The notes beneath the pieces were generated by a model. It had not been told where the DNA came from and searched no databases. It saw only the letters and a program-made list of their open reading frames with translations. This document shows positions 33,755 to 34,433 of a DNA stretch of 34,433 nucleotides, piece by piece. Source of the stretch: Candidatus Zhuqueibacterota bacterium (GTDB taxonomy: Bacteria > Zhuqueibacterota > Zhuqueibacteria > Residuimicrobiales > Krinioviventaceae); assembly GCA_016934825.1 (NCBI GenBank), contig JAFGSB010000061.1, forward strand, positions 1 through 34,433, read 5' to 3'. How positions within the stretch are numbered: the first letter of the stretch is position 1; every line of letters starts with the position of its first letter. The position numbers were made by a program, and so were the translations under genes.

Positions 33755-33817
33755 GGAATTTGGTTGTCAGTTATCAGCTTTAAACTGACAGCGAATGGCT
33801 GAGAGCTGAAAGCTAAA

Positions 33818-34433
33818 TATGTGGTTGGTTGGCAAGATCAGGTTTAAAGAATTTCAGTAACCGACCGATGCACCAAAGCGCACGTTGTGGTTGGTTGGCA
33901 AGATCAGGTTTAAAGAATTGATGAAAACAACAAACCCTTGGAGTTGCAAGTTGTGGTTGGTTGGCAAGATCAGGTTTAAAGAATTCTTCACCGCATTGGG
34001 GACATTCGAACACCTGTTGTGGTTGGTTGGCAAGATCAGGTTTAAAGAATTTATAACTGGGAATAGAACAGCCCAGTTTGCGTTGTGGTTGGTTGGCAAG
34101 ATCAGGTTTAAAGAATTGAAGAATGGTATCAATTGGAAGTTTTACCAGTTGTGGTTGGTTGGCAAGATCAGGTTTAAAGAATTCCAGACCACCATGAACT
34201 ACCATCTGATTCAGTTGTGGTTGGTTGGCAAGATCAGGTTTAAAGAATTCGGATTACAGTCGAATCGTTTGTATTGTTTGGTTGTGGTTGGTTGGCAAGA
34301 TCAGGTTTAAAGAATTTATGAAATACCATGTATTTGACCTTTGTTGGTTGTGGTTGGTTGGCAAGATCAGGTTTAAAGAATTCCAACTTTTCTATGCGAC
34401 ATTTTTACACTCGTTGTGGTTGGTTGGCAAGAT
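33818..34433. CRISPR. CRISPR array end, 36-bp repeats and 30-bp spacers, continuing past the window
   Basis: Ten repeats start at 33818, 33884, 33950, 34016, 34082, 34148, 34214, 34281, 34347 and 34413; the last is cut at 21 bases. The repeat starts GTTGTGGTTGGTTGGCAAG and ends ATCAGGTTTAAAGAATT on the + strand. Copies are identical except the first, whose first two bases differ (TAT for GTT). Nine spacers, all different, are 30 bases long, one being 31 (34250-34280). The degenerate outer repeat, and only 63 bases to the preceding gene, suggest this is the leader-distal end, with leader and cas genes to the right and transcription leftward. That is inference. The repeat has almost no internal hairpin. 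Repeat and spacer lengths fit type II or VI-B; the type cannot be decided without cas genes. Confidence 0.97.

Follow-up and report, generated by a model that had tools for sequence, protein, structure and literature searches.

The window, which is the whole stretch of 34,433 nucleotides analysed here (contig C108 of the source genome), ends in a CRISPR array. This array is almost certainly the cas2-distal part of a type II-C CRISPR-Cas9 array that the assembly split between C108 and a second contig, C84. The system is an ordinary type II-C CRISPR-Cas9 system. A preliminary description, made from the window alone, had placed the cas genes outside the window and had called the type undetermined. 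The former was correct, but the latter can now be replaced by type II-C, as cas9, cas1 and cas2 adjoin the opposite array end, which is on C84.

The array in the window consists of nine full 36-nt repeats and a tenth that the contig end truncates, separated by nine spacers, each different (Table 1). Eight of the full repeats are identical, which excludes a chance origin. The spacers are 30 nt long except W7 (34250-34280), which has 31 nt. The preliminary description had reported a CRISPR array with nine unique spacers of 30 bases (one of 31) and a degenerate outermost repeat, in agreement with the eight identical repeats, with W7 and with the two changed 5' bases at 33818. Its count of ten repeats stands, but only nine of them are full, the tenth comprising 21 nt. 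The repeat alone folds poorly, at -3.4 kcal/mol on the plus strand and 0 on the other, as had also been stated. Directly outside the array, at 33760-33815, the window carries short imperfect repeats (TCAGCTTT/AGCTGAAAGCT), and similar sequence follows the array in L024.

When the source genome (5.39 Mb, 179 contigs) was searched with the repeat, the exact 36-mer was found only on C108 and C84, whereas the reversed 36-mer matched nowhere. Both C108 and C84 (read as L020) end inside a repeat, in orientations compatible with one array. Read in the crRNA sense, C84 begins with TTTAAAGAATT and the window finishes with GGCAAGAT, so that with one repeat bridging the two contigs only four bases (CAGG) are absent. 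The two contigs together contain at least 16 spacers, and the gap in the shared repeat may conceal further spacer-repeat units. The array start on C84 is located 99 bp after the cas9-cas1-cas2 operon. The cas1 and cas2 genes and the large effector, which the preliminary description had proposed to look for past the contig end, were thus found through the identical repeat. Its statement that no cas gene is present within the 34 kb to the left of the array also held: the only Cas1 match in the source genome is on C84, and of eight window proteins compared with the defence library, seven had no match. The eighth resembles a general helicase. HNH_4 matches were obtained on C84 (strong) and on C132 (weak); the latter (G000:C132:7029-7127; 25.9 bits, in a 175-aa frame) was not accepted as Cas9. 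A match to a Cas3 helicase model in the source genome was uninformative, since the same model matched in 14 of 14 control genomes.

Table 1. Coordinates of the array and of the associated genes in the window (C108) and on C84 (positions of L020)
Feature	Contig	Position	Strand	Remarks
Starts of the nine full repeats	C108	33818, 33884, 33950, 34016, 34082, 34148, 34214, 34281, 34347		
Outermost repeat, cas2-distal	C108	33818..33853	+	TATG for GTTG, first two bases changed
Spacer W1	C108	33854..33883	+	Translation SVTDRCTKAH
Eight identical 36-nt repeats with spacers W2-W8 interleaved	C108	33884..34382	+	GTTGTGGTTGGTTGGCAAGATCAGGTTTAAAGAATT
Spacer W9, last in the window	C108	34383..34412	+	
Tenth repeat	C108	34413..34433	+	21 nt, truncated by contig end
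Array part on C84	C84	12769-12297	-	A further seven full repeats and seven spacers
cas9	C84	7961-10984		
cas1	C84	10977-11864		
cas2	C84	11868-12197		
tracrRNA-like element	C84	about 7895-7780	-	Anti-repeat and terminator

The Cas9 protein has 1007 aa and matches TIGR01865 with 719 bits (cut-off 100) as well as the RuvC_III, HNH_4 and Cas9_a domains. Residues D8, E476, H557, H695 and D698, which we take to be the catalytic ones, are invariant among the three relatives. Both halves of Cas1 match TIGR03639 (type II Cas1), and Cas2 matches type II Cas2 models. Only cas1 and cas2 lie between cas9 and the array, with no further gene, and neither csn2 (II-A) nor cas4 (II-B) was seen in the operon or in the neighbouring C84 ORFs, the neighbours being judged by translation. 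With cas9-cas1-cas2 and neither csn2 nor cas4, the gene set is that of type II-C, described as having an operon of three genes and an array transcribed in the opposite direction (PMC3936727). The assignment settles the type of the array and leaves the general picture of CRISPR systems unchanged. It adds a Cas9 of this compact size (1007 aa), with a predicted tracrRNA and a repeat, from an uncultured lineage, and these can be tested as an enzyme.

A single-sequence Cas9 scan of genome_contigs found no relatives, and a search of the same set with a three-sequence Cas9 alignment found 368. They occur in MAGs, Neomarinimicrobiota, Chlorobi, Planctomycetota, Bacteroidota and Proteobacteria. Many of them share the gene order of the source, and cas9-cas1-cas2-array recurs across many related named loci. 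The distribution within the source phylum is patchy: of 82 genomes searched, 3 carry a close Cas9, the source genome among them. The two close relatives, JAKQIY010000073.1 (G001/L028) and JAKQNP010000056.1 (G015/L027), are both MAGs. Their Cas9 proteins share 62-63% (G001) and 61% (G015) identity with that of the source. Like the source, both have cas9-cas1-cas2-array with an opposite-strand tracrRNA-like element upstream, a 36-nt repeat with a CCACAAC end on the cas strand and a similar leader, and in both (L024/L028 and L025/L027) the cas2-distal repeat is degenerate. In contrast, their repeats differ from the source repeat in the middle and at the 3' end, and the flanking genes of G001 differ from those on C84. 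The II-C systems of Neisseria meningitidis and Riemerella anatipestifer share the three-gene operon and the tracrRNA beside cas9, but the source Cas9 is distant from them; among solved structures, those closest to it in sequence are Cas9 chains, for example 9ar4_A (296 bits).

Directly upstream of cas9, on the opposite strand, AAACCTGATCTTGC...CCCACAAT is followed by a hairpin and a T-run (intrinsic terminator). The duplex between repeat and anti-repeat, which comprises a lower stem (GUUGUGG:CCACAAU), a bulge and a long upper stem (GCAAGAUCAGGUUUA), was calculated at -34.8 kcal/mol; shuffled repeats averaged -15.5 kcal/mol (sd 3.1). G001 and G015 keep duplexes of their own (-34.6 and -36.5 kcal/mol, respectively) despite their different repeats; in G001 the middle of the repeat is changed and the anti-repeat has changed along with it. 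Cross-pairing with G001 is clearly weaker (-22.6 to -27.5 kcal/mol), and that between the source (G000) and G015 is less weakened (-32.1 and -32.9 kcal/mol). The duplex and the co-variation of repeat and anti-repeat are strong evidence, at the level of sequence, for a dual-RNA design with a predicted tracrRNA. An Rfam search of C84 gave no match to a tracrRNA or CRISPR family, and the weak matches fell under their gathering scores. The preliminary description had favoured a tracrRNA-dependent effector and had advised a search for an anti-repeat. Cas9, the complementary element upstream of its gene and the terminator, all at the C84 array end, bear out that expectation.

Judging from the anti-repeat pairing, the crRNA strand would be the plus strand of the window, read towards cas2 and against the cas operon. 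Transcription of the array would then run counter to that of cas9, cas1 and cas2, a trait described for type II-C (PMC3936727). The preliminary description had taken the leftward CCACAAC end as a sign of type VI-B. This does not hold, since the leftward reading would be the non-crRNA strand and the predicted tracrRNA pairs with the rightward one. The 36-nt repeat, the 30-nt spacers and the CCACAAC ending of the opposite strand would suit Cas13b, and an unusual Cas9, a Cas13b or something else had been suggested, but the adjacent effector is a type II-C Cas9. The probability that the array serves a type VI-B (Cas13b) or other non-Cas9 effector is negligible. The same repeat is adjoined by cas9, type II cas1/cas2 and the complementary predicted tracrRNA, and a type VI effector would leave the anti-repeat unexplained; as the linked effector, Cas13b is excluded.

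It is also improbable that the genome has two distinct arrays that share the repeat, one by the C84 cas locus and the other an orphan in the window that depends in trans on the Cas9 and tracrRNA of that locus. C108 and C84 are not linked by any sequence, and R. anatipestifer has a second array (CRISPR2) distant from its cas genes (PMC5006608), both of which would fit two arrays. However, these are the only two array ends in the source genome, each stopping inside a repeat, and joining them puts the leader side at cas2 and a single degenerate repeat at the opposite extremity, which is also the arrangement in G001 and G015.

In the single split array, pre-crRNA would be transcribed from the plus strand of the window towards cas2, and the divergently transcribed tracrRNA would pair with every repeat. 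Cas9, by means of RuvC and HNH, would then cut DNA matching the spacers, and new spacers would be added on the cas2 side. In R. anatipestifer II-C the leader and acquisition are on the cas2 side (PMC5006608), like the leader side of the source, and the degenerate repeat is cas2-distal in all three genomes; by analogy, the window probably holds the old end of the array.

The spacer at this end, W1, matched viral contig L117, in a phage-type DNA methyltransferase gene, at 28 of 30 positions and three other viral contigs at 26 of 30, the 3' (seed) 20-mer being exact in these matches. Its translation, SVTDRCTKAH, is a stretch of N4/N6 DNA methyltransferases. The matched viral genes are homologues of the spacer source, not necessarily the source itself, and the flank GAGTACCT is for this reason unreliable as a PAM. 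Pairs of N4/N6 DNA methyltransferase genes are present on viral contigs (608-1606 and 1603-2559 on L117; 3031-3867 and 3744-4823 on L119), and W1 matches one gene. A comparison of the spacers with viruses had been recommended. In scans of the viral contigs with no more than 8 of the 16 spacers, as such or in degenerate form, W1 alone matched and the seven others had no match. Matches to phage records were at chance level for both halves of the array, and no spacer matched elsewhere in the source genome beyond chance.

The cas1 gene of the source is interrupted by an in-frame TGA at 11469-11471 of L020, whereas cas1 is intact in G001 and G015. The aligned relatives have mostly Arg or Lys at this site (Arg in G001, Lys in G015). 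A stop at the TGA position is absent from all of the 56 relatives with long matches to cas1, and two of them have a stop elsewhere in the match. TGA also terminates cas2 of the same operon, which makes recoding of the cas1 codon unlikely. The codon separates the conserved NQEAAAAK segment of Cas1 from the GIHH and DIMEP segments; these three presumably carry the metal-binding residues. Since Cas1 is needed for acquisition in R. anatipestifer II-C (PMC6008519), acquisition would probably be lost if the TGA is real. The TGA would then stop or strongly lower acquisition in this strain and leave interference intact, and the system may be competent for interference only. The codon is known from one MAG assembly and could stem from an error in that assembly or represent a minority allele (polymorphism).

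A type II-C system with interference kept, acquisition lost by the cas1 nonsense codon and a conserved GAAA-capped leader hairpin possibly acting on the pre-crRNA is a tentative reading of fairly low probability. Decay, in which cas1 is a pseudogene and the entire module is on its way to loss, is rather unlikely as well. It would agree with a TGA where aligned relatives mostly have Arg or Lys, in an operon whose cas2 uses TGA as its stop. Against decay, cas9, cas2 and the predicted tracrRNA are all intact, the eight window repeats and the seven C84 repeats are identical, and a lone stop seen in a MAG could reflect error or polymorphism.

Between cas2 and the array, at about 12232-12250 of L020, there is a GC-rich hairpin whose loop reads GAAA on the crRNA strand and which has no T-run after it. 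A GAAA-loop hairpin is located at the same place in L028 and L027 (three of three genomes), and the stem sequence differs from genome to genome. In some other lineages, this interval carries hairpins that resemble terminators.
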